Of a DNA stretch of 64,000 bases, positions 4,760 through 55,497 are shown piece by piece. Under the pieces are notes generated by a model, which made no database searches, was not told the origin of the DNA, and saw only the letters and a program-made list of their open reading frames with translations. This DNA comes from Olivibacter sitiensis DSM 17696 (GTDB lineage Bacteria; Bacteroidota; Bacteroidia; Sphingobacteriales; Sphingobacteriaceae), in contig NZ_ATZA01000028.1 in assembly GCF_000427965.1 (NCBI RefSeq), forward strand, positions 1 through 64,000, read 5' to 3'. The stretch's first letter is position 1. Each line of letters starts with the position of its first letter. The position numbers and the translations under genes were made by a program.

Positions 4760-5385
4760 TCGCTGTCAATTCCCTCCAAATGCGATATATTATAAAAATC
4801 GATGATCTCAAAACGTACCCCATCGTACAGTACTTTGTACAATGCCGTATTGGTATGTGGAAACTCATCCATCCGTGAAAGATCTATCCCGAGGAGCAGG
4901 CAAAGCAATAGACGAATAGCCCTGCCATGCATGCATACCAGCACTTTGGAATGCGTAGACATGGTATTCAAAATATAATCTATTGCTTGTTCTTGCCTTT
5001 TTTTCACCTGATTGGGTGTCTCTCCATTTTCCACACAAGAATCCAGCTCTCCATTGCACCAACCTTGAGTAAGGGCCAAAAAACCGCTCAAGACCTCCTC
5101 CGTTTGCTCCTTACCTTCGTAGATACCCCAACTTATCTCATCAAGACCTTCCAATTGCTCCCATGGAATGCCCGATTGGATAAAGCCGTCGACGGTTTGG
5201 TGAGTCCGCAAAAGCGTTGACGTGAATAATTTCTCAAACGGCACGCTCTTATAAAATTCATAAAATAGTTCCGCCTGTTTCAGGCCGGTTTCGTTCAGGG
5301 GAGAGTTTACTCCCCTACCCTGAACTATGCCCTTTTTATTGAGATCTGTTTCTCCGTGACGTATTATATACAATATTTTCTCCAA
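4747..5385 (-). CDS. Histidine phosphatase family protein inside the mqn operon
   Basis: Phosphoglycerate-mutase-like phosphatase of about 212 residues. The phosphohistidine motif IIRHGETDLN is near the N-terminus, the acidic residue lies in SWGIYEGKE, and the second catalytic His is in VCMHGRAIR. No ATG precedes the RHGE motif. The frame opens with TTG at 5406 and again at 5385, and I prefer 5385 (MEKILYIIRHGET) by comparison with relatives. It sits between mqnE (51-71 bases away) and mqnA (13-base overlap). The substrate is unknown; the family covers small phosphate esters, nucleotides and cofactor phosphates. A role in menaquinone synthesis is inference from position only. Confidence 0.85.
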   Translation of the reverse strand: MEKILYIIRHGETDLNKKGIVQGRGVNSPLNETGLKQAELFYEFYKSVPFEKLFTSTLLRTHQTVDGFIQSGIPWEQLEGLDEISWGIYEGKEQTEEVLSGFLALTQGWCNGELDSCVENGETPNQVKKRQEQAIDYILNTMSTHSKVLVCMHGRAIRLLLCLLLGIDLSRMDEFPHTNTALYKVLYDGVRFEIIDFYNISHLEGIDSEWIK

Positions 5386-5456
5386 GTCGAATAAATTTAA
5401 AAACAAAGGGGAATTAAACCTTTCAGATCACAGCTGTTAACAAGTGTCGGAATCAA

Positions 5457-33905: not shown

Positions 33906-34868
33906 TCAACCTTTCCTGAACCGTTTATCTGTGAGCGCATTCAGGAAATTTTCCAGGTCTTCTTTTTCTTGTTCGGTTAGTTCCAGCGGTTGAGATAACA
34001 GAGAGTCCCTGTTGATGGGATTGGGCACCACCTTATCCGGATCGTTGTAATATTCGATGACCTCGCGCAAGGTTTTGAACATGCCATTATGCATATAGGG
34101 AGCTGTCAAAGCCACATTGCGCAGTGGGCCGATCTTGAACTTACCGAGGTCCTCAGGTCTTTTCGTGATGGCAGCACGACCACTGTCCAGCAAGGTCTTG
34201 CCGTCAAACAGGCCGATATTCCTAAACTCGATGTTGTTGAAATTAGGACCGAAATGGCATTGTATGCAGTTAGCCTTGCCGTTAAAAAGGGCAAACCCTC
34301 TTTTGGCCGATTCGCTCACTGCCTTTTCGTTGTCGTTCATCCGCCAATCATCGAAAGGTGTGTTATTGGTTTCCAGAGAACGCTGGAACTCGCCCAAGGC
34401 CTGCGCAAGATTGGTCGCATTGGGAACCTCGTTGAATATCTTTTGGAAAACCTGAACATAAAACGCATTTTGGTTCAGACGTGCCACTGCACTATCTATC
34501 GGTAGGTCCATCTCATCCGGATTGGCAATGGGTATGAGCGCTTGCTCTTCCAAGGTGGCTGCCCGCCCGTCCCAGAAGAAACTGACATCTAGGGCAAGGT
34601 TCATGGCCGATTGAGTATTCCGAGTGCCTTTTCTATCCATCACTCCCAAACTCACGGCACCGGTATCTGCAAAGGCAAATTCCGGCCTGTGACAGGAAGC
34701 ACAGCTTATTTTGCGGGTGGATGACAGGATGGTGTCGGAAAAGAGCATCTCGCCCAAGGCAACCTTGTCCCTAGGCATTTTGGAGACATTGGTGCAGGAA
34801 CGGTTGGCCAGCAAGAGCACAATTGTAAATAAGCTTATGATGACGTACATTTGCTTTTTCATGCTCAT
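33906..34868 (-). CDS. Di-heme cytochrome c peroxidase (CcpA/MauG family)
   Basis: 320-residue periplasmic di-heme protein. Hydrophobic signal segment at 6-25 with a Cys in LANRSC that might be lipidated, first heme CASCH near 57, second heme CIQCH near 205, plus TAPYMHNGMFKTLREV near 270 with the Met/His typical of the family. It would reduce H2O2 with electrons from a cytochrome, or act as a MauG-like oxidase. Its ATG overlaps the TGA of the upstream lipoprotein gene (ATGA), showing translational coupling. Last gene of a four-gene unit below the hybrid regulator. The frame extends to 34919, but the ATGA start is favoured. Confidence 0.9.
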   Translation of the reverse strand: MSMKKQMYVIISLFTIVLLLANRSCTNVSKMPRDKVALGEMLFSDTILSSTRKISCASCHRPEFAFADTGAVSLGVMDRKGTRNTQSAMNLALDVSFFWDGRAATLEEQALIPIANPDEMDLPIDSAVARLNQNAFYVQVFQKIFNEVPNATNLAQALGEFQRSLETNNTPFDDWRMNDNEKAVSESAKRGFALFNGKANCIQCHFGPNFNNIEFRNIGLFDGKTLLDSGRAAITKRPEDLGKFKIGPLRNVALTAPYMHNGMFKTLREVIEYYNDPDKVVPNPINRDSLLSQPLELTEQEKEDLENFLNALTDKRFRKG

Positions 34869-35239
34869 CTTACTCTTTTTAATCCCACTCCGTCCATATC
34901 TTGTTTCCGAGGTGGGCAACTGTCCTCCACAGCTACAAACTGGACAGAATCGGCCGATATGAAATTGACCTTATACGTGGCATAGTAGTCGCTGTTACAG
35001 ATGGGATCCATTGTTTTGAGTGTATCATTGCGGAAAATGGATCTGCCGCTTGAAAACAGCTTTCCATTAACAAAGTAATCGTGGGTACCGTCCTTTCTGA
35101 ACACGAACTGTGCGTCGGCTCCCATACTTTCAAAAACAAGATCCCACTTACCATATAGTATATGTTCAGTTCTGGATTGACAACTTACGAATAATAGAGT
35201 GGCTGCCGTTAGCGAAAAAAACGAGCTTTTCATGACCAT
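34865..35239 (-). CDS. Lipocalin-like lipoprotein, paralogue 3
   Basis: 124 residues with signal peptide and lipobox LLFVSC (Cys about 20). The mature part has LYGKWDLVF, FVFRKDGTHDYFVNGKLFSSG, NDTLKTMDPICNSDYYATYKV and a C-terminal SCPPRKQDMDGVGLKRVR. It shares this order of motifs with the two genes upstream, so the three are tandem copies. The GKW start and short strands suggest a lipocalin-like barrel. Two Cys (PIC, DSC) could form a disulfide, as in paralogue 2. Coupled to the peroxidase gene by an ATGA overlap. Second in-frame ATG at 35233. Confidence 0.8.
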   Translation of the reverse strand: MVMKSSFFSLTAATLLFVSCQSRTEHILYGKWDLVFESMGADAQFVFRKDGTHDYFVNGKLFSSGRSIFRNDTLKTMDPICNSDYYATYKVNFISADSVQFVAVEDSCPPRKQDMDGVGLKRVR

Positions 35240-35242
35240 ATT

Positions 35243-35620
35243 TTAATTTATCCTTACAAACCCTATATTGTCCGTTCCTTCCCTGCGCGCCGTACAGGTA
35301 TCGGCTATCAGACTGAACGTCAGCGAATCCCTCTTGAAAAGCAGCTTGTAGGAGCCCTTGTAATCCACATTGCATATTGGGTCGCTGAAAAACACCGTGT
35401 CGCCCAACAGCTCATAGCTGCCGCTGACGAATGGTTTACCGTCCACTATGCCTTCAAAGCTGCCGTCCGTGCGGAAAAAGGCAACAAATTCAAAGGGCTT
35501 GCCATTGAATACGCCCTTTTCTGACCATTTGCTCCCTAGGATGTCTTTCGGCCCATATTCAGGAGCCGAACAGCTTGCCACAAATAGGCCTAAAACTGCT
35601 ATCAAATACATTGTTTTCAT
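35243..35620 (-). CDS. Lipocalin-like lipoprotein, paralogue 2
   Basis: 125 residues; lipobox FVASC (Cys 17). Mature part: GSKWSEKG, FVAFFRTDGSFEGIVDGKPFVSG, DTVFFSDPICNVDYKGSYKL and DTCTARREGTDNIGFVRIN. It shares the DG..GK.F.SG, DPIC..DY and C-terminal R-rich motifs with paralogue 3, including the same two Cys. Three bases separate its stop from the start of paralogue 3. Predicted periplasmic, membrane-anchored. Function unknown. Confidence 0.8.
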   Translation of the reverse strand: MKTMYLIAVLGLFVASCSAPEYGPKDILGSKWSEKGVFNGKPFEFVAFFRTDGSFEGIVDGKPFVSGSYELLGDTVFFSDPICNVDYKGSYKLLFKRDSLTFSLIADTCTARREGTDNIGFVRIN

Positions 35621-35635
35621 ATCGCATGCTTTATG

Positions 35636-35986
35636 TTAATCTCTAATACGTTCAAAGACATGCCCGTCCATGGCCTTACGCCTCCCGGATACCGTGTCGG
35701 ATACGGCATAAGAAATCACCTTGTCGTCCTCAAACCGAAACGTGTAGATTGCCTTATACGAATCGGGTGTGGGCTCGTTGACAAATAGGGTGTCGCCCGA
35801 CGTTTTGTAATAGCCAGAGGCGAAGGATTTGCCGTTGGAAAAGCCGTCAAATGTGCCATCCTTGCGGAAGTAAACGGTAAAACCTTCGGTTTTCAGGCTT
35901 GCCCACTTGCCCTCAATTTTTTGATCGGGTTGGCTACAGGCAACAGACCACAATACCGTGATAGCCATTACAGAAACTCTTTTCAT
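35636..35986 (-). CDS. Lipocalin-like lipoprotein, paralogue 1
   Basis: 116 residues; lipobox WSVAC (Cys 17). Mature part: IEGKWASLK, VYFRKDGTFDGFSNGKSFASGYY, GDTLFVNEPTPDSYKAIYTF and DTVSGRRKAMDGHVFERIRD. Same motif order as paralogues 2 and 3 but without the Cys pair. First gene of the four-gene unit; its promoter region carries 9-bp direct repeats 21 bp apart (36049-36078) and a TAGCTTTG -7 element. Function unknown. Confidence 0.8.
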   Translation of the reverse strand: MKRVSVMAITVLWSVACSQPDQKIEGKWASLKTEGFTVYFRKDGTFDGFSNGKSFASGYYKTSGDTLFVNEPTPDSYKAIYTFRFEDDKVISYAVSDTVSGRRKAMDGHVFERIRD

Positions 35987-36011
35987 ATTCTTCTTTCATC
36001 TGGTACAGTTG

Positions 36012-36078
36012 CAAAGCTATGGCTGTAGCCCAATAACGGCCTTTGCCATTGTTGCAAATGCTTTTGATTTTGTTGCAA
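36012..36078 (-). promoter_or_regulatory. Promoter with 21-bp-spaced direct repeats below the hybrid regulator
   Basis: On the reverse strand TAGCTTTG (36012-36019) is an exact -7 element; the -33 position is poor. Just upstream, TTGTTGCAA (plus-strand reading) occurs at 36049-36057 and again at 36070-36078, exactly 21 bp apart, roughly at -43 and -64 from the predicted start. A shorter GTTGCAA lies at 36008-36014. Direct repeats two helical turns apart next to a weak -33 are what an AraC-type activator uses, and such a regulator is encoded immediately upstream. Confidence 0.6.
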
Positions 36079-36113
36079 TAGCTAAAAGTAGCCATGAGGC
36101 GGCCTGTATTGAT

Positions 36114-39038
36114 CTATATAGGGACTACTTCACTAGGCGGATAGCCAAAATGTTTTGAAAAACTAGTGGAAAAATTGGCGGGATTGGCATAGCCTACCAT
36201 ATAGCAGACCTCGGCCACGGTGGCCACCTTGTGTTGCAGCAGTTCGTGTGCCCGCTGCATACGGATGGTACGAATCAGTTCGCCCGGGCTTTGGTCCATC
36301 AAGCCTTTCAGCTTGCGGTGTAGCTGGGTACGGCTCAGGCCAATGTCCTTGCCCAGTTGTTCAGGGCCTAATTGGTCATCGTCCAATCTAGTCTCCACAA
36401 CATGCCGCACCCGTTCCAAGAAAATTTTTTCTATGGCAGGCAATGTGGCCGCTTCAGTAAGCCACACGTTACCCTTTCCGTATTTTTCCCTTAACTGCTT
36501 GCGTACACGGATCAGGTTTTCCATCAATGCCAGCAATTCCCTTTTGTCAAATGGCTTGGCGAGGTAGGCATCCGCACCGATCTCTATACCTCGCACCCTG
36601 CTGTCTCGGTCGGTCTTGGCAGTGAGCATGATGATGGGTATATGGCTAGTACGTTCATCCGTTTTAAGGGTATGGCACACCTGGTAGCCATCTTTTTCCG
36701 GCATCATCAGATCGGTGATGACCAATGTGGGAATCTGTTCCAGGGCCGTGTCAATGCCTTTAGCCCCATCGGAAGCCGTTATCACCGTATAGTTTTCTGC
36801 AAGCGAGAACCGGATAAAATGGCGTAGATCGGCATGGTCTTCTACCACAAGTACCACTGGCAGTTCGTCCCTAAGTCCGTCGCTTGGCACACTTGGGTTT
36901 GACGACTGCATCACCCTTTCCTGTTGGGGCGCTGCCGTCATATGTGTGGTTTTCGCCGCTTTGGTATAAGGAAACGAAACCGTGAAGGTAGCGCCTTTAC
37001 CTTCCTTGCTTTCCACGCAGATGCTGCCGCCCAGCAATTCTGTCAACTCCTTGGTAAGCGCCAGCCCGATGCCGGCCCCTTCCTTTGCCCTGGTGTCGGA
37101 AGCATCTACCTGATAGAAACGGTCGAAAACATACGGTAGTTTATCTTGTGGAATCCCTATGCCGGTATCGGCAACGATGATGTCAAAACTATCGTTCTCC
37201 TTTTTGTTCAACGTGATGGCAATACTGCCCTTATGGTCAATGAATTTAATGGCATTGGAAAGTAGGTTCTGTACGATCTTTTCCATTTTGTCCAAATCGC
37301 TTGCTATCCATAGTTCATCTACGTTGGAAGAAAAGAACAGGTCAATCTGTTTCTGCTCGGTCAGCGAATGGTATTGCTGCACGTGCGTGCGCAACCAGTT
37401 GACCATCTCTATCGGTTCTGTTTGGATATCCAATTGGCCGCTTTCCAGTTTGCTCAGATCCAGCAATTGGTTGATAAGTTGCAACAATCGGTCACTGTTC
37501 TGTAGGATGTAACGGGCATACTGTTTCCCTTCTTCGCTATAGGCCTGCTTCAGTAATTCTTTAGCGGGATTGGCAATAAGCGTCAGAGGTGTTTTAAATT
37601 CATGCGTCAGGTTGACAAAAAAACGAGATTTCACGGCATCCATTTCCCGCAGTTTTTCTGCCTGTGCCCTTACCTGCGCCGTGCGTTCCAGCACGGTTTG
37701 CTCCAATCTTTCCGCTTGCTCTTCCATGAACCTTGTCCTTTCCTGTTCCTGTTCCAGCGCCCTGGCGGAAAGTACCTCGTTCTCTTCCAACTGCCTGGCC
37801 AATTTGCGATTGGTATCGGCCACATCTAGGGCAAGGTATATGGAAAACAGCACGGGGATAATCAGCGTAGCAAATCCCATGGCCGTCAAAACCTGCCTCA
37901 AATTGAACCACCCAAAGATATTCATACCCACCACCAGGCTCAGTATGCCCACCACGACCATGCCCACGGCAATCAGCCACAGCCGTTTGTTCCCCTTCCG
38001 GATGGCACCGATGATGGCACGCGCTCCCTCTGCAAATGCCAGTAAGGCAACGGCAGCAGTCATCCAATCCCAAATCCTGGGGCTAGAGTTGGACAGGATG
38101 CTTTCCAAGTGCGAGATACGGTAACCTATCAGGACCAATGAAATGCCCCCAAACAGCCATAGCCGCCACATCGGGAGCTTGCGATAGCTCACACTATATA
38201 AGAGCAGCAATTGCGTCACGTTTACGATAATGGTCATGGCAAAAAAGGCCTTCCATGCAAAAACCTGTATGTAGGGACTGGTGGTTACTATGGTTAAATA
38301 CCGGAAATAAAGTACCGTGGAAGTACTGAGCACAAACAGGCTGTAATAGAGGTTTACTTTATTCTTAGGGTAAAAGACGAACAACAATAAGTGGAGCAAG
38401 ATCAAGATGGCCTGCGCCGCCCCGCTCAGCAATTGGAAATCCATGAAATGCTGATTTTCCTTTCGCTGCACGTTCATGGTATGCATATCACCTGCCCACA
38501 ACTGAAAGCCCACAAAATCTGAAAAGGCGGGTCTGTAATTGCAATAACGAATAGCGATCAGATGCGGCAGTGTATCCGTAATCGCTACCGGAAGAACAGC
38601 ATAGGGATCCCTTTTGGCCACCCAGTCTTTTTCCGACGTGCTAAATGTTCCTATGCCTTCGATTTTTTGCCCATCCCAGTACAGTTCCGATGCGCCATCG
38701 TGGTTGAGGTACAGACCCCAGGTAGCCGTGCTGCTTAAGCTGTCTTTCCTGACCCATAGCCGAAACCAGCCGTAGCCCTTCCATCCTTTGGGCAAATTAT
38801 CGCTCCCGAAATTTGGTTGAAATGTGTCCCAATGACCATCGTCAATATCGGGCTTGGCCCACGATGGGTCATCCCCCGAATGGAAACGCCAAGGATGTTC
38901 ATTGAGGGAAAAGAAACCAGCATCGGCAGGCTTTATCTTTAGCTGCACCGCATCCTGTTGGGCAAATAGCCATGTACCCATGCTGAAAAACAGCCCGGAA
39001 AACAGGATTAATATCTTGATGCCAAGTATCATAGACAT
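36114..39038 (-). CDS. Hybrid two-component regulator: sensor kinase, receiver and AraC domain
   Basis: 974-residue single-protein two-component system. Order: signal segment (10-27), periplasmic jelly-roll/galactose-binding-like domain (about 30-195), seven-helix membrane region of the 7TMR-DISM kind (about 205-400), coiled coil (400-465), HisKA with His in NLTHEFKTPL near 479, HATPase with NAIKF and DTGIGIP, receiver with Asp in VITDLMMPEKDG near 776, and AraC HTH (about 870-974). Lacks the beta-propeller sensor of polysaccharide-type hybrids. The frame opens at a TTG (39071); ATG at 39038 is preferred. It probably controls the lipoprotein-peroxidase unit just downstream. Confidence 0.93.
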   Translation of the reverse strand: MSMILGIKILILFSGLFFSMGTWLFAQQDAVQLKIKPADAGFFSLNEHPWRFHSGDDPSWAKPDIDDGHWDTFQPNFGSDNLPKGWKGYGWFRLWVRKDSLSSTATWGLYLNHDGASELYWDGQKIEGIGTFSTSEKDWVAKRDPYAVLPVAITDTLPHLIAIRYCNYRPAFSDFVGFQLWAGDMHTMNVQRKENQHFMDFQLLSGAAQAILILLHLLLFVFYPKNKVNLYYSLFVLSTSTVLYFRYLTIVTTSPYIQVFAWKAFFAMTIIVNVTQLLLLYSVSYRKLPMWRLWLFGGISLVLIGYRISHLESILSNSSPRIWDWMTAAVALLAFAEGARAIIGAIRKGNKRLWLIAVGMVVVGILSLVVGMNIFGWFNLRQVLTAMGFATLIIPVLFSIYLALDVADTNRKLARQLEENEVLSARALEQEQERTRFMEEQAERLEQTVLERTAQVRAQAEKLREMDAVKSRFFVNLTHEFKTPLTLIANPAKELLKQAYSEEGKQYARYILQNSDRLLQLINQLLDLSKLESGQLDIQTEPIEMVNWLRTHVQQYHSLTEQKQIDLFFSSNVDELWIASDLDKMEKIVQNLLSNAIKFIDHKGSIAITLNKKENDSFDIIVADTGIGIPQDKLPYVFDRFYQVDASDTRAKEGAGIGLALTKELTELLGGSICVESKEGKGATFTVSFPYTKAAKTTHMTAAPQQERVMQSSNPSVPSDGLRDELPVVLVVEDHADLRHFIRFSLAENYTVITASDGAKGIDTALEQIPTLVITDLMMPEKDGYQVCHTLKTDERTSHIPIIMLTAKTDRDSRVRGIEIGADAYLAKPFDKRELLALMENLIRVRKQLREKYGKGNVWLTEAATLPAIEKIFLERVRHVVETRLDDDQLGPEQLGKDIGLSRTQLHRKLKGLMDQSPGELIRTIRMQRAHELLQHKVATVAEVCYMVGYANPANFSTSFSKHFGYPPSEVVPI

Positions 39039-39172
39039 CTGAGCTAAAAGCGGAACACCTTCTCTGCACAAAGAACCACAAAAATTGTCCTACCGAACTA
39101 TCCTCATTGTACATGTCAAGTATAACAAATTAAAAATCAGCAAAAAATACCAAAAAAATGGTATTTTTTGCC

Positions 39173-49978: not shown

Positions 49979-51136
49979 TTAGTCCTCCTCTTCCGTATTC
50001 TTTATTTTCATCAACAGGGCATAAGCATTTTTCACCACCACTCTGGAAGAGCTATCCAATCCTTCGGCTTCTACAGCTTGAAAACCCTGGGAAAAATCAC
50101 CTGGTTTCACCGCTAGCATTTCAAAAGTCCCTTTCTCTTTTTCCAAAAACACATAATGTTTGTTTTCCCAGCGAACCACCGCATCTTCTGGTACGGCCAA
50201 TGCGGTCCTACCCCGCAATACCACATCGCCATTCATAAACATGCCCGGATACAGATTATGGTCATATTGCTCAAAATGACAATGCACCTCTGCCGATCTG
50301 TTCTCATCCAAATTTCGGCTTATCAAGATGATTTCGGCTTCGTGCCTGTCGCTCGGATCGCTGTTCGTATAAGCCCATACTTTTTGGCCAATAGAAAGCA
50401 AGGGCAAATCTTTTTCGAAAACCGTCAAAGACAGGTGGATATCCCTCGGATCTACCAGCTCGAACAGCATATCCGTGGGCGCGGTATACTTCCCCACGTT
50501 GACATTCACCTTGGACACAAAACCGTTGATGGGAGAAAGGATATTGACCGTTTTGGAGATATTGGATGCGTCCAACCGTTGCGGATTAATACCTATCAAC
50601 TCCAATTTCTGTTCCAATGAAGCCCTGTTGATTCGCTGTGTCTCCATCGCAGCCCTGGCTTGCTCAAACACCCTATCGCTACTAGCCTTGCTCTTATTCA
50701 GGTCCTGCTGCCTATTGAATTCCGCCTCGGCCAATCTGAACCGTTCTTTGGCCGTCAGGTAATCTTGCTGCAATTGGATAAATTGCATGTCCTCCATCAC
50801 GGCCAGCACCTGCCCTCTTCTGACTGGGGTGCCGGGCAACATCGCCGTGCTCTTCAGGTACCCTCCTAGCGGAAAGCTCAAACTTACTGTACTGTTGGGC
50901 GGTACATCTATGCTTCCTTGCAATTTGAGCAGTCCGCTTACCGCTTGCATAGATGGGGTACCTACTTCTATGCCAGCACTTTTTATTTGGCTATCGTTCA
51001 ACGAGACCATCTCTTCTACCTCTAGACTGTCTGCGTTTTGTTCGCCTATCGATTCTTCTTTGTCATTACTGCCACAAGCCAAGAAGAAAAGGCATACAAG
51101 GCAGCCTAAAATATATCGTTTCATAGTGTTCTTCAT
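49979..51136 (-). CDS. Heavy-metal RND efflux adaptor (CzcB/CusB-like)
   Basis: 385-residue membrane-fusion lipoprotein; lipobox FLAC (Cys about 21). It has VPPNSTVSLSFPLGGYLKSTAMLPGTP-region half-lipoyl motif near 80, helical hairpin 115-195, and ILSPINGFVSKVNVNVG near 205. Related to CzcB/CusB adaptors that dock the metal pump to the outer-membrane channel. Its ATG overlaps the stop of the pump gene by one base (TAATG), so it is translationally coupled. A second in-frame ATG lies at 51124. Confidence 0.92.
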   Translation of the reverse strand: MKNTMKRYILGCLVCLFFLACGSNDKEESIGEQNADSLEVEEMVSLNDSQIKSAGIEVGTPSMQAVSGLLKLQGSIDVPPNSTVSLSFPLGGYLKSTAMLPGTPVRRGQVLAVMEDMQFIQLQQDYLTAKERFRLAEAEFNRQQDLNKSKASSDRVFEQARAAMETQRINRASLEQKLELIGINPQRLDASNISKTVNILSPINGFVSKVNVNVGKYTAPTDMLFELVDPRDIHLSLTVFEKDLPLLSIGQKVWAYTNSDPSDRHEAEIILISRNLDENRSAEVHCHFEQYDHNLYPGMFMNGDVVLRGRTALAVPEDAVVRWENKHYVFLEKEKGTFEMLAVKPGDFSQGFQAVEAEGLDSSSRVVVKNAYALLMKIKNTEEED

Positions 51137-54100
51137 TACAAATTTTTCAATCTCTGCCATTGTACCACAGCCTGATTGTAGCCATTTAGCATATTTAAAT
51201 AATCACTTTTTACCCCTATGGCCTGATTGACCAAGATAACCCATTGCAAATAATCTATATCGCCAGATTGGAATTGCTCATCGGCCGTTTCCATGATGAT
51301 CTGGGCATTATCCAATGCTTCTTGCTCAAAATAGCGCAAGCTTGCCGCATATTTTTGAACCTGTTCCGCAGCATTCGACAGTTCCACCTCCCATTGCAAT
51401 TGGGCATAGGCCGTTTCCCTTTGGCTACGTTGCCATTCCACTTTGGCGGCGGCGGCACGCGCAGACTGGGCCCCGAAAAACAAGGGAATACCTACCCCTA
51501 CGTTGAAAAAATTAAACCGCTTGTTGCGATCATAGTAAACCTCTTGTCCGGCTACTAATTGGGATCCTACTAAGCTTTGGTTGTTGTATCCCAAGGTGAG
51601 TTCTGGCAGCAACTTGGATTTTTCTCCCTGCCATCGCCATCGGGCAGCCTCCTGCTGGTGGCGAGCGATGGCTACAAGGGGTGTTTCATTGCCATAGCTA
51701 TTCGTATCTAACAACGCAGCTGGAAAATCCACCTTCAAACCATTTGCTTGAGGCACGTAAAAAGCACTGTCCTGCAACAGTAGGTTAAATTGCTTGAGCG
51801 CTATTTGGATATCCTTATGGAGCATGTTCTGTTGATTGGTCAGATGTTGCCTTTGCGACTGGGCGGCGGTTTTCTCCAAGATATTGGCTGCTCCCTTTTC
51901 AAAGCGCAGGTTGGACTTGCTTTCGAACAAGCGGTACACGCTATCGGCATAGCGCAAGAGATCGCGTTTGGCCTGCAAGGAAACCAATTCATAGTACAAG
52001 GAGCGGACGTTGAATTTAACTTCCTGTTCGGTCATTTTCGTTCGTGCCTGTGCAACAAGAAAATTTTCTTTCAATGTCTTTTTCTGATGGCTGTATACCG
52101 TGGGGAAGCTAATGGTTTGGCTCAGCCCAAAACGGGTGTCATTCTGTGCACTGTTTATTTTCCCGTACTCGGCATCCACAAGGGTTTTGGCCACATCAAA
52201 AGCACTGCCTTGCATCAGTTCGCTAGACTGCTCACCCAAGCGTGCTCCTTGTATCTGTTGATTATTGGCAAGGGCCAAACGAATGGCTTCGTCCAGATTG
52301 ACAGGCTTTTCTTGCGCAACGGCATGCACTGTACAAAATAGGCCCAACAATAAAACAAGGGGCTTTTTTCCTAATCGAAATCTACTTTTTCCTTCAAAAA
52401 TGAGGTAAAGAGCAGGCAGCACAAACAAGGTGAGGAAGGTGGCCGTAATGAGCCCACCTATAACCACGGTAGCCAGCGGCCGCTGCACCTCCGCTCCTGC
52501 CCCATTGCTCAGGGCCATGGGTAAAAAGCCCAGTGAGGCCACAGCGGCCGTCATCAATACCGGTCTCAGGCGGTTGCGCGTGCCCATCATCACCAACTGT
52601 AAGGTCTCGGTCACCACGCCTTCCTTTTTGATGCGGTTAAACTCGGATATCAACACGATACCATTGAGAACGGCCACCCCAAACAGCGCAATGAAGCCCA
52701 CGCCTGCCGAAATGCTAAAGGGCATGTCGCGCAAAGCCAAGGCAAACACCCCGCCAATGGCCGAAAGCGGTATGGCCGTATAGATCAACAAGCCTTCTTT
52801 CACGGAAGAAAAAGCAAAATAGAGCATCAGGAAAATGAGGAGCAAGGCAACGGGCAATGCAACGCTGAGCCTCGCCTTGGCCTGTTGCAGATTTTCAAAC
52901 GCCCCCCCATAGGTGGTATAATAACCTGCATCGAACTTCATTTGCTTATTCACTTTTTGTTGCAATTCCTCCATAATGGACTGCACGTCACGTCCCCTCA
53001 CATTGAAGCCTACGATGATCCTACGCTTGGCATCCTCCCGCTGAATCTGGTTTGGCCCTTCTATTTCTTCTATGGAAGCCAATTGATATAATGGTATTTG
53101 ATTGCCATTGGGAGTAGATATGAGCAGATTTTGCACATCATTTATGTTTTTTCTCGACTCGCTGCCCACACGCACCACGAGGTCAAAGCGTTTCTCGCCC
53201 TCGTAGATACTCCCTGCAACAGCACCCGCAAAGGCGGCATTTACCGTCGTATTGATATCTACTATATTGAGCCCATATTTGGATATTTCCTCCCGATTAT
53301 AGTCTATCACGATCTGTGGCATGCCTGTCACTTTCTCCACATACCAATCCGACGTTCCTCTCACCGTTTTACTGATGGCTCCCAGCTGCTCGGCATATGC
53401 CGCGAGCTTGTCCAGGTCTTCACCGAATATCTTGCACACCACATCCTGTTTGGCACCTGTCATCAATTCATTGAAACGCATCTGCACGGGGTACTGGAAT
53501 CCGGTGGTCACCCCTGGAAGTATTTCCTGTACATCGGCCGCCATCTTGTCGGCCATTTCCGGGAAAGTCTTGGCGCTTGTCCACTCCTTCTTGTTCTTCA
53601 GCACAATAATCATATCACCTCCTTCAATGGGCATGGGGTCTGTAGGTATTTCCGCACTGCCTATCCTAGAGACGATCTTCTCTACCTCGGGATATTTTTC
53701 CTGCAAGTGTTCCGTGATTTTCTGAAAGGCATCTATCGTGGTACTCAGATTTGTTCCTACCAGCAACCTGGTTTCTACGGCAAAATCACCTTCCTCCAGT
53801 TGCGGGATAAACTCGCCTCCCATTCTCGTAAACAGGAATACCGCTATGGCAAAAAGGCCGAAAGCCAATAGCACTACGGTCTTTCTCATCATTAGGGCTC
53901 GCGACAAGAGGCCTTGGTATATCCCTTCAATCCTGGTCATGACTCTATCCGATAAGGTAGGCTTATGCGACACTTTCTTACTGATAAACAGGGAGCTGAT
54001 CATGGGCACATAGGTAAGCGACAAGATAAATGCGCCAATGATGGCAAAGGCCACCGTTTGCGCCATGGGCTTAAACATCTTGCCTTCAATGCCCGACAGG

Positions 54101-55497
54101 GAGAGGATGGGCAGGTAAACAATCAGTATGATAATCTGACCGAACACGGCTGCATTCATCATACGTGATGCCGATGAGGATACCTCTTCGTCCATCTCCT
54201 TTTGTGTGAGCAGGTTCACTTCCTTGTATTTCTTCGAAAAATGGAGATGGTGCAATATAGCCTCCACGATGATGACCGCTCCATCCACGATGAGCCCGAA
54301 ATCGAGCGCTCCCAAGCTCATCAGGTTGCCGCTCACCCCAAAGAGATTCATCATGATAATCGCAAAGAGCATGGAAAGTGGGATGACGGATGCCACGATA
54401 AATCCAGCCCTCAGATTGCCCAAAAAAAGCACGAGTACAAAGACCACAATCAATGCACCTTCCAGCAGATTGCTTTCCACCGTACTAATGGCATTGTTCA
54501 CCATCTTGGTACGATCCAGGAAGGGTTCAATCTCCAGTCCTTCTGGCAAGGTTTTCTGTATCTCGGCAATACGGAGCTTCACGTTTTCGATTACTTCGGA
54601 TGAATTGCCCCCTTTCAGCATCATCACGATCCCGCCCGAAACCTCGCCATATCCGGCCATGGTAAGCGCTCCATAACGAATGGCCGACCCTTGTTGTACC
54701 TCGGCCACGTGTTTAATAAGTACAGGTGTACCATTATCGGTATTTTTCACCACGATGCGCTCAATATCGTCCATACTGCCAGCCAGTCCCATACTCCTTA
54801 TATAAAGCACCGTAGGGCCTTTCTCAATATAGGCGCCACCCGTGTTTTGGTTATTGCGGGCCAAGGCCGTAAATATGTCGGCAATAGTGACCCCCAAGGC
54901 CTTGAGCTGCGCCGGGTTGGCAGCTACCTCGTACTGTTTCAGGTCGCCACCAAAGGTAGACACATCCGCCACGCCAGGTGTACTCAGCAATTGCCTACGG
55001 ATAATCCAGTCTTGCGTACTACGCAAGTCGGCCAACGAGTAGCTGTCCTCATAGCCTTTTTTGGGCTTGACGACATATTGGTATATCTCGCCCAAGCCCG
55101 TGGTAACCGGTGCCAACTCGGGGGTGTTGGCATTTTCATTGATATCTATCTGTGAAAGACGCTCTATCACCTGTTGGCGCGCCCAGTACACGTCGGCGTC
55201 GTCGTCAAAAACAATGGATATGAGCGAAAGTCCGAAGCGCGACATGCTCCTGATCTCCTCGAGCCTGGGAATATTGCTCATGACCTGCTCGATGGGAAAG
55301 GTGATGAGCCGCTCTACATCTTCTGCTCCAAGGGCAGGAGCTGTGGTAATAATCTGTACCTGATTGTTGGTAATGTCCGGTACGGCATCTATGGGCAGGC
55401 GGCTCACCTCATAAGCCCCATAGGCTACCCATAGCAACATAAATAAACCGATTATCAGCTTGTTATTCACTGAAAACCGTATGATTTGATTAAGCAT
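51136..55497 (-). CDS. CzcA-type heavy-metal RND pump fused to a TolC-like domain
   Basis: 1453 residues. Positions 1-1035 are a heavy-metal RND pump starting MLNQIIRFSVNNKLIIGLF, with the signature DFGLIVDGAVIIVEA near 400, the type linked to divalent metals (Co/Zn/Cd/Ni) rather than Cu/Ag. After the last membrane helix a second signal-like hydrophobic stretch (LVLLLGLFCTVHAVAQ, about 1045-1060) leads into a TolC-family outer-membrane factor of about 390 residues (LDEAIRLALANNQQIQGA; SLYYELVSLQAKRDLL). Inner-membrane pump and outer-membrane channel are thus one frame. Similar fusions occur in Bacteroidota. The adaptor follows with a one-base overlap; a small secreted protein gene lies upstream. 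Confidence 0.94.
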   Translation of the reverse strand: MLNQIIRFSVNNKLIIGLFMLLWVAYGAYEVSRLPIDAVPDITNNQVQIITTAPALGAEDVERLITFPIEQVMSNIPRLEEIRSMSRFGLSLISIVFDDDADVYWARQQVIERLSQIDINENANTPELAPVTTGLGEIYQYVVKPKKGYEDSYSLADLRSTQDWIIRRQLLSTPGVADVSTFGGDLKQYEVAANPAQLKALGVTIADIFTALARNNQNTGGAYIEKGPTVLYIRSMGLAGSMDDIERIVVKNTDNGTPVLIKHVAEVQQGSAIRYGALTMAGYGEVSGGIVMMLKGGNSSEVIENVKLRIAEIQKTLPEGLEIEPFLDRTKMVNNAISTVESNLLEGALIVVFVLVLFLGNLRAGFIVASVIPLSMLFAIIMMNLFGVSGNLMSLGALDFGLIVDGAVIIVEAILHHLHFSKKYKEVNLLTQKEMDEEVSSSASRMMNAAVFGQIIILIVYLPILSLSGIEGKMFKPMAQTVAFAIIGAFILSLTYVPMISSLFISKKVSHKPTLSDRVMTRIEGIYQGLLSRALMMRKTVVLLAFGLFAIAVFLFTRMGGEFIPQLEEGDFAVETRLLVGTNLSTTIDAFQKITEHLQEKYPEVEKIVSRIGSAEIPTDPMPIEGGDMIIVLKNKKEWTSAKTFPEMADKMAADVQEILPGVTTGFQYPVQMRFNELMTGAKQDVVCKIFGEDLDKLAAYAEQLGAISKTVRGTSDWYVEKVTGMPQIVIDYNREEISKYGLNIVDINTTVNAAFAGAVAGSIYEGEKRFDLVVRVGSESRKNINDVQNLLISTPNGNQIPLYQLASIEEIEGPNQIQREDAKRRIIVGFNVRGRDVQSIMEELQQKVNKQMKFDAGYYTTYGGAFENLQQAKARLSVALPVALLLIFLMLYFAFSSVKEGLLIYTAIPLSAIGGVFALALRDMPFSISAGVGFIALFGVAVLNGIVLISEFNRIKKEGVVTETLQLVMMGTRNRLRPVLMTAAVASLGFLPMALSNGAGAEVQRPLATVVIGGLITATFLTLFVLPALYLIFEGKSRFRLGKKPLVLLLGLFCTVHAVAQEKPVNLDEAIRLALANNQQIQGARLGEQSSELMQGSAFDVAKTLVDAEYGKINSAQNDTRFGLSQTISFPTVYSHQKKTLKENFLVAQARTKMTEQEVKFNVRSLYYELVSLQAKRDLLRYADSVYRLFESKSNLRFEKGAANILEKTAAQSQRQHLTNQQNMLHKDIQIALKQFNLLLQDSAFYVPQANGLKVDFPAALLDTNSYGNETPLVAIARHQQEAARWRWQGEKSKLLPELTLGYNNQSLVGSQLVAGQEVYYDRNKRFNFFNVGVGIPLFFGAQSARAAAAKVEWQRSQRETAYAQLQWEVELSNAAEQVQKYAASLRYFEQEALDNAQIIMETADEQFQSGDIDYLQWVILVNQAIGVKSDYLNMLNGYNQAVVQWQRLKNL

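Follow-up and report, generated by a model that had tools for sequence, protein, structure and literature searches.

A MauG-like di-heme enzyme co-inherited with small lipocalin-like proteins, and encoded beside a hybrid regulator, in Olivibacter sitiensis

The 64-kb stretch of DNA analysed here (positions 1 to 64,000 of contig NZ_ATZA01000028.1 of Olivibacter sitiensis DSM 17696, hereafter the window) carries a hybrid sensor-regulator gene, three genes for small lipocalin-like proteins and a gene for a di-heme enzyme related to MauG and MbnH (Table 1). An earlier note on this DNA had read five same-strand genes between 33906 and 39038, and an open reading frame (ORF) listing confirmed them on the minus strand. 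The regulator is taken to start at the ATG at 39038 (the start given by the ORF tool is the TTG at 39071), and the enzyme ORF is longer by the tool's TTG start (34919) than the call used here. From the regulator to the enzyme the intergenic gaps are 127, 15, 9 and -4 nt, the last being the ATGA by which, as the note had described, the third lipocalin gene overlaps the start of the enzyme gene. To judge from the sequence, the genes are spaced as in one operon.

Table 1. Features of the regulator, lipocalin and enzyme locus (window positions)
Feature	Position	Strand	Remarks
Terminator-like hairpin	39139..39172	-	14 pairs, then T-rich; after upstream efflux gene
Hybrid sensor-regulator	36114..39038	-	Signal peptide, jelly-roll periplasmic domain, seven-transmembrane (7TM) region, HisKA, HATPase_c, receiver, AraC-type helix-turn-helix (HTH)
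Periplasmic sensor domain	38466..38960	-	Predicted jelly-roll like GH2 sugar-binding domain
Candidate operator	36042..36076	-	Tandem direct repeat, 21-bp period, GCAACnnnnnCnAAnnnnnnnGCAACnnnnnCnAA; in the regulator-lipocalin gap
Candidate -7 box	36012..36019	-	TAGCTTTG; between operator and first lipocalin gene; fits TAnnTTTG
Lipocalin-like protein 1	35636..35986	-	116 residues, no Cys pair, borderline lipobox SVAC
Lipocalin-like lipoprotein 2 (middle)	35243..35620	-	125 residues, Cys83 and Cys109, lipobox VASC
Lipocalin-like lipoprotein 3	34865..35239	-	ATG at 35239 or 35233, Cys pair, lipobox FVSC
MauG/MbnH-like di-heme enzyme	33906..34868	-	320 residues; two CXXCH, W99, Q109, P113, E119, Tyr274

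The lipocalin and enzyme genes were found together in every intact locus of the surveys whose enzyme has at least 63% identity. A profile built from seven lipocalin-like proteins was searched against 400 genomes of the order and matched 31 of them at E 0.001. Strong matches (E < 1e-40) came from 11 genes in nine genomes, five of which had contributed to the profile and four of which were found by it; these were followed by a single match at 8.3e-18 and by weak matches from 8.8e-7. The nine best enzyme matches (at least 63% identity) were in the same nine genomes, with the pairs adjacent, and no such enzyme was found beside the 8.3e-18 relative (G384, contig C6). In a survey of named genomes, for which the best 80 of 148 stretches encoding enzyme relatives were kept, lipocalin matches occurred at 17 loci, 16 of them intact. 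In all 16, as in all nine genomes of the 400-genome sample, the lipocalin gene or genes lie directly upstream of an enzyme with at least 63% identity; the two surveys overlap in six loci (L109, L110, L118, L119, L122 and L124). The seventeenth, L134 (5541-6561, Mucilaginibacter sp. SMC90), holds both genes side by side in degraded form, with the repeat described below upstream at 2 mismatches, and L123, of the same enzyme clade, starts at a contig edge.

Relatives have one lipocalin copy, or two as in L111, L112, L117 and L120, and the window has three. The gap between lipocalin and enzyme is -4 to 29 nt in 15 of the 16 loci and 128 nt in L111, with the 4-nt overlap of the window recurring in L112. 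Linked loci span Sphingobacteriaceae, Chitinophagaceae and one Leadbetterella metagenome-assembled genome (MAG), and a regulator of a single clade lies upstream in 9/16 of the intact named loci. Thus the view that these genes are one conserved unit was borne out, and the note's expectation that the small proteins would not occur mostly apart from the enzyme or the regulator held fully for the enzyme and in nine of 16 loci for the regulator. We regard it as nearly certain that the module is real and inherited. The system is also rare and patchy: it is present in one of five genomes of the genus, two of 394 other genomes in a sample of the phylum and none strongly, matched at E <= 1e-6 (best 2.0e-10). 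A scan of genome contigs with the three window paralogues gave no relative.

The enzyme matches PF03150 (CCP_MauG) with 168.7 bits against a cut-off of 25.6, and its heme sites, C56-C59-H60 and C201-C204-H205, are conserved in all nine sequences of one enzyme alignment. Of the curated models the best was MbnH (TIGR04039, 217.7 bits, cut-off 362.85), and the MauG model (TIGR03791) gave 204.4 bits against 443.85. In the alignment, the sixth-ligand column that holds Tyr294 of MauG holds Tyr274 of the window enzyme and a Met in 2c1u, a di-haem peroxidase from Paracoccus. Tyrosine fills this column in 18/18 rows of the lipocalin-linked clade, in 21/21 YceI-linked rows and in 65/77 others. The distal pocket has Q109, P113 and E119, with W99 at the inter-heme position, and the spacing of the first three matches Gln103/Pro107 of MauG and Gln267/Pro271/Glu277 of BthA as given in PMC6405878. 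According to that paper, MauG is set apart from the classical bacterial peroxidases by having Tyr-His instead of Met-His ligation. A classical cytochrome c peroxidase was rejected on account of Tyr274 at the Met-ligand position, and the "peroxidase" of the earlier note stands as a family label. The alignment points to membership in the Tyr-ligated (MauG/MbnH/BthA) group and not in the Met-ligated cytochrome c peroxidases. In L125, L127, L128, L129 and L130, which are enzymes near these clades, the position of the inter-heme Trp is taken by His or Tyr.

To see what lies beside related enzymes, the genes closest upstream were compared across 101 enzyme loci, namely the 80 named ones and 21 inspected out of 39 listed matches in the 49-55% identity band (30 loci together with the nine best); L123, L170 and L171 yielded none. 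A member of the lipocalin-like family was upstream in 17 loci (one degraded). In the neighbouring clade a YceI gene was upstream in all 21 inspected loci (Pfam 21/21), and in one of these, L065, a 78-residue ORF on the opposite strand lies between YceI and enzyme. MbnP was upstream in 18/80 named loci, as second gene in L179, and Pfam recognised it in 19/19, including the window genome's own second pair. This pair (L238, contig C19) contains the one further CCP_MauG gene of the genome, ahead of which stand an MbnP-family lipoprotein-like gene and a piece of a TonB-receptor-like gene. The YceI-linked loci L065-L085, from the same bacterial family, read as thioredoxin-like, YceI, MauG-like and receptor-like, the thioredoxin-like gene being next to YceI in 20/21 by clustering and matching AhpC-TSA by Pfam in the one tested. 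In a quick version of the enzyme tree, which does not settle how the lipocalin, YceI and other branches are ordered, the lipocalin-linked enzymes and the partial L123 form one clade (support 98) and the YceI-linked enzymes another (100). Both fall inside a clade of 46 rows (100) with eight rows labelled other, L123 among them, and the 16 rows labelled MbnP-linked are scattered.

The three small proteins are paralogous, as the note had proposed: a search of their own genome aligned the other two with the middle protein at 38% and 36% identity (E 6.7e-15 and 9.7e-15). Their GKW, DG..GK.F.SG and Arg motifs were found as described, with SKW and EG as variants in the middle protein, and the Cys pair is present in two of the three. 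Proteins 2 and 3 have a clear lipobox, the SVAC of protein 1 is not canonical, and single-copy relatives have none; lipoprotein anchoring, not being conserved, was rejected as a defining trait. An MbnP-like identity was also rejected, with no PF20243 match in any of the three. Protein 3 branches with the second lipocalin gene of L111, L112, L117 and L120 (support 1.000).

The middle protein is predicted to form a small, single antiparallel barrel (predicted local distance difference test, pLDDT, 87.4; predicted template modelling score, pTM, 0.72). In a finer structural alignment of this model, Bacteroides lipocalin-like proteins came first: 4gzv had Z 11.1, a root-mean-square deviation (rmsd) of 3.5 and 92 aligned residues, and 4iab, annotated as a putative monosaccharide binder, Z 10.8. 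The lipocalin assignment is owed to this alignment and not to Foldseek, whose best match was weak (E 6.4e-4, carboxylase chains, poor superposition). Among sequences in the PDB the best relative of the lipocalin profile had E 0.43. No Pfam lipocalin match rose above cut-off, the best for the window proteins being DUF5640 (20.1 bits, cut-off 28.5), and Lipocalin_4 reached E 0.16 in one of 12 sequences. In an alignment of 23 sequences, from which L134 was left out and in which some are near-identical, the invariant residues are G29, W32, F49, K62, D74, Y91, D98, D107 and R112 in middle-protein numbering. C83, Y87 and C109 are kept in 22/23, the exception for both cysteines being window protein 1, and the G29 and W32 columns of the N-terminal G-x-W motif are filled in 23/23, the middle protein reading G-S-K-W. 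By the predicted strand order, one end of the barrel would carry both the C83/Y87 loop and the C109/R112 loop.

Peroxide defence is a rather unlikely explanation of this pairing, by which the enzyme would reduce periplasmic H2O2 and the lipocalin-like lipoproteins would be electron donors or carriers of a reducing cofactor such as a quinol. YceI is a lipocalin-fold family that binds isoprenoid quinones, and the enzyme clade next to the one studied here pairs with YceI and, in 20 of 21 loci, a thioredoxin-like gene. The CCP_MauG domain has its distal-pocket residues complete, and PMC6405878 describes the Tyr-ligated BthA as reducing H2O2 with a donor; yet the Met of a classical cytochrome c peroxidase is replaced by Tyr, and the 23-sequence alignment of the lipocalin-like proteins has no conserved heme- or metal-binding motif.

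In the regulator, HisKA, HATPase_c, receiver and AraC HTH domains are joined in one chain, the make-up of a hybrid two-component regulator, which agrees with the kinase, receiver and AraC parts named by the note. The periplasmic sensor that it had also named is supported by a predicted GH2-type sugar-binding jelly-roll together with a 7TM region just under cut-off (7TMR-DISM_7TM, 27.6 bits, cut-off 29, E 3.3e-6). An AlphaFold2 model of the sensor (pLDDT 92.0, pTM 0.88) had 5uj6 as its best match in the non-exhaustive lists of VIA-align (Z 13.8, rmsd 3.2, 136 aligned), and Foldseek gave 6ed1 at E 9.7e-7. The modelled fold suggests that the signal is saccharide-like rather than peroxide itself. 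In the regulator tree, a branch with support 1.000 separates the ten lipocalin-linked regulators, that of the window included, and the unlinked L107 and L108 from the other unlinked regulators. A genome scan that scored no more than two candidates in each genome placed L108 on a contig that also carries a lipocalin-enzyme pair, in G369, and a full regulator away from the lipocalin locus was found in G384, G369 and G367. It is improbable that a small envelope ligand, such as a sugar conjugate or an aromatic, is bound by the lipocalin-like proteins and oxidised by the enzyme while the regulator senses ligand or product. The GH2 fold of the sensor and the place of Bacteroides lipocalin-like proteins, with the putative monosaccharide binder 4iab, as best neighbours of the lipocalin model would suit such a role, but the shared fold shows no ligand and, to judge from PMC6405878, the role known for MauG is other than the oxidation of small molecules.

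Direct repeats spaced by roughly two turns of the helix are common binding sites of AraC-type proteins, and a tandem direct repeat with a 21-bp period precedes the first lipocalin gene. Since its pattern was defined by eye on the lipocalin loci, its count upstream of lipocalin genes is in-sample, and the genome-wide and unlinked-regulator tests are out-of-sample. Allowing up to 3 mismatches, 15/17 intact loci have it in the 260 nt ahead of the first lipocalin gene, none of 200 shuffles doing as well except one for L115. At a sixteenth, L116, it lies just after the regulator and ahead of an extra small gene (5045-5419) between regulator and lipocalin. The repeat is kept in six of the seven loci that have no adjacent regulator. 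In the 5.05-Mb window genome the exact pattern has one match; at two mismatches there are six, the exact one and five others, and the reversed control also gives six. Across 12 relatives at one mismatch there were 22 repeat matches against 6 in the control. In a tally that covered 100 bp ahead of the regulator end and 1500 bp beyond it, the repeat (up to 2 mismatches) lay 14-65 bp after 14/23 regulators, including 10/19 unlinked ones, of which some are near-copies (L089/L091, L097/L098); the shuffle control for the 19 gave 1/3800. Between repeat and lipocalin gene, the window has a match to TAnnTTTG, which we take to be the -7 box consensus of Bacteroidota promoters. The same box stands at -25 to -42 in L111, L112, L117 and L120, and in the other linked loci it was not seen, except for one at -67 in L122.

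Regulation through this candidate operator is likely. That regulator and repeat serve the lipocalin-like proteins only and the enzyme rides along is very improbable. The operator does lie upstream of the lipocalin gene and other such regulators do precede unrelated secreted or lipoprotein-like genes, but lipocalin and enzyme are kept together in 16/16 intact loci across all the groups listed above, overlap by 4 nt in the window and L112, and have left remnants of both in L134. The ten unlinked regulators with this 21-bp tandem repeat downstream (within L089-L101), several of which stand before other small secreted or lipoprotein-like genes, are perhaps a family of local regulator-operator-lipoprotein units.

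With a probability of about 0.5, we interpret the locus as a regulated enzyme-plus-partner module, in which the lipocalin-like proteins are the dedicated partners of the enzyme and most likely its oxidation substrates. That the module is co-inherited is real, and it is probably co-regulated. The periplasmic jelly-roll domain would bind a ligand, perhaps a saccharide, the kinase-receiver part would become phosphorylated, and the AraC-type domain would bind the repeat and activate a single transcript for lipocalin genes and enzyme. Charged by H2O2 in the periplasm, the enzyme would then act at long range to oxidise residues of its lipocalin-like partner, in the way that MauG acts on the precursor of methylamine dehydrogenase (preMADH). 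Candidate targets are the invariant Trp32 and Tyr91 and the near-invariant Tyr87, and the modified barrel might bind a ligand or metal, or carry redox equivalents. The weakest step is that the partner is a substrate, which we would place a little short of even odds. The note had the lipoproteins deliver or protect a ligand or redox partner for the enzyme; this was not supported as stated and, while possible, is less likely than a substrate role, because the enzyme is akin to enzymes that are paired with MbnP.

Several observations weigh against a dedicated, regulated enzyme-substrate module. The enzyme scores far below the cut-offs of the curated MauG and MbnH models, the ligand-column Tyr is common family-wide (104/116 rows) and not specific to the lipocalin-linked clade, and the surface Trp199 of MauG finds no match in the window enzyme by eye. 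Trp32 is part of the general lipocalin GxW motif, which can account for its invariance without any chemistry; lipocalin-like proteins encoded apart from the enzyme (L020, L051, L055) likewise have the Cys pair and DxCxxR. No His is conserved across the 23 lipocalin-like sequences, which makes a Kyn-His (kynurenine-histidine) copper site of the CorA/MopE kind unlikely, and it was rejected. Of the 98 loci with an upstream gene, 42 have none of the three partner types, and L125 and L130, near the lipocalin-linked clade, have no same-strand gene directly upstream. As to regulation, seven of the 16 named loci have no adjacent regulator. L122, which is shared with G081, has neither repeat nor regulator, and no full-length regulator was found in G081. 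G233 has the repeat, and no full-length regulator was found there either; L107 and L108, which group with the linked regulators, have no repeat behind them.

Upstream of the regulator the window has an efflux operon that ends just before it, and the hairpin between them suggests that the regulator starts its own transcript. This hairpin has the longest stem of a terminator scan whose count was at chance level (7 sites against 6.1 in shuffles), and the promoter count of the same scan was likewise not above shuffles. The upstream efflux genes were rejected as members of the unit because of the intervening hairpin, a link to them being not wholly dismissed. Read by eye, the genes upstream of the regulator differ in L017 and L018, and in L054 (9653-12001, Pedobacter sp. 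MC2016-05) an RND-pump-like ORF precedes it, by eye of another type than that of the window. Elsewhere in the window, an ACR_tran RND pump is fused to an OEP outer-membrane efflux domain in a single chain of 1453 residues (51136-55497), with a CusB/HlyD-like gene adjoining.

To our knowledge, few MauG-type enzymes have a known target, and if the proposal is true such enzymes would have a new kind of target in the lipocalin-like proteins. Among the open-licence literature matches listed, no paper reported a MauG-like enzyme with a lipocalin-like or YceI partner; the combination with lipocalin-like lipoproteins is absent from them, and its parts are of known kinds. The tight pairing of the enzyme with a barrel of 116-125 residues, together with the candidate operator, offers a small system for asking whether the chemistry extends past quinone cofactors and copper sites. 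Because the partner changes from one enzyme clade to another, a general approach suggests itself, in which the secreted neighbour is taken as a candidate substrate. More tentatively, a MauG-like enzyme may oxidise lipocalin-fold lipoproteins post-translationally, and Bacteroidota may have re-paired one scaffold with unrelated secreted partners (MbnP, YceI, lipocalin-like); the barrels would thereby gain protein-derived cofactors or redox sites, in this locus with a hybrid regulator dedicated to them.

Among known systems, MbnH-MbnP, in which MbnH itself modifies MbnP, and the CorB-CorA and SACCP-MopE pairs of methanotrophs likewise place a MauG-like di-heme enzyme beside the gene of a secreted partner. 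MbnH is also the top curated model for the window enzyme, with a score under the cut-off. PMC3621798 and PMC3912023 describe the MbnH/MbnP, SACCP/MopE and CorB/CorA pairs and a conversion of Trp to kynurenine in MopE and CorA for which the enzyme is suspected. Unlike these, the window has as partner a small lipocalin-like barrel that does not match PF20243 and has no conserved His for a copper site, and it has a hybrid regulator of its own. MauG of methylamine dehydrogenase shares the Tyr ligand (294 in MauG, 274 here) and the Gln/Pro spacing, whereas the window enzyme has no mau genes beside it, scores under the cut-off of the MauG model and leaves Trp199 of MauG unmatched. BthA of Burkholderia, as described in PMC6405878, is a Tyr-His ligated CCP_MauG enzyme outside the mau operon and always beside a partner gene, but its partner is a putative phosphatase and its inter-heme residue is Ser where the window enzyme has Trp99. 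Closer by, the YceI-linked enzymes of the same bacterial family form a neighbouring clade with a secreted partner upstream, and differ in that this partner is YceI; reading of the sequence places a thioredoxin-like gene ahead of YceI and has the enzyme followed by a receptor-like protein. Finally, the hybrid two-component regulators of Bacteroidota have the same sensor, kinase, receiver and AraC output in one chain, while that of the window has a 7TM region and a GH2-like jelly-roll sensor, with no glycan-use genes seen beside it.

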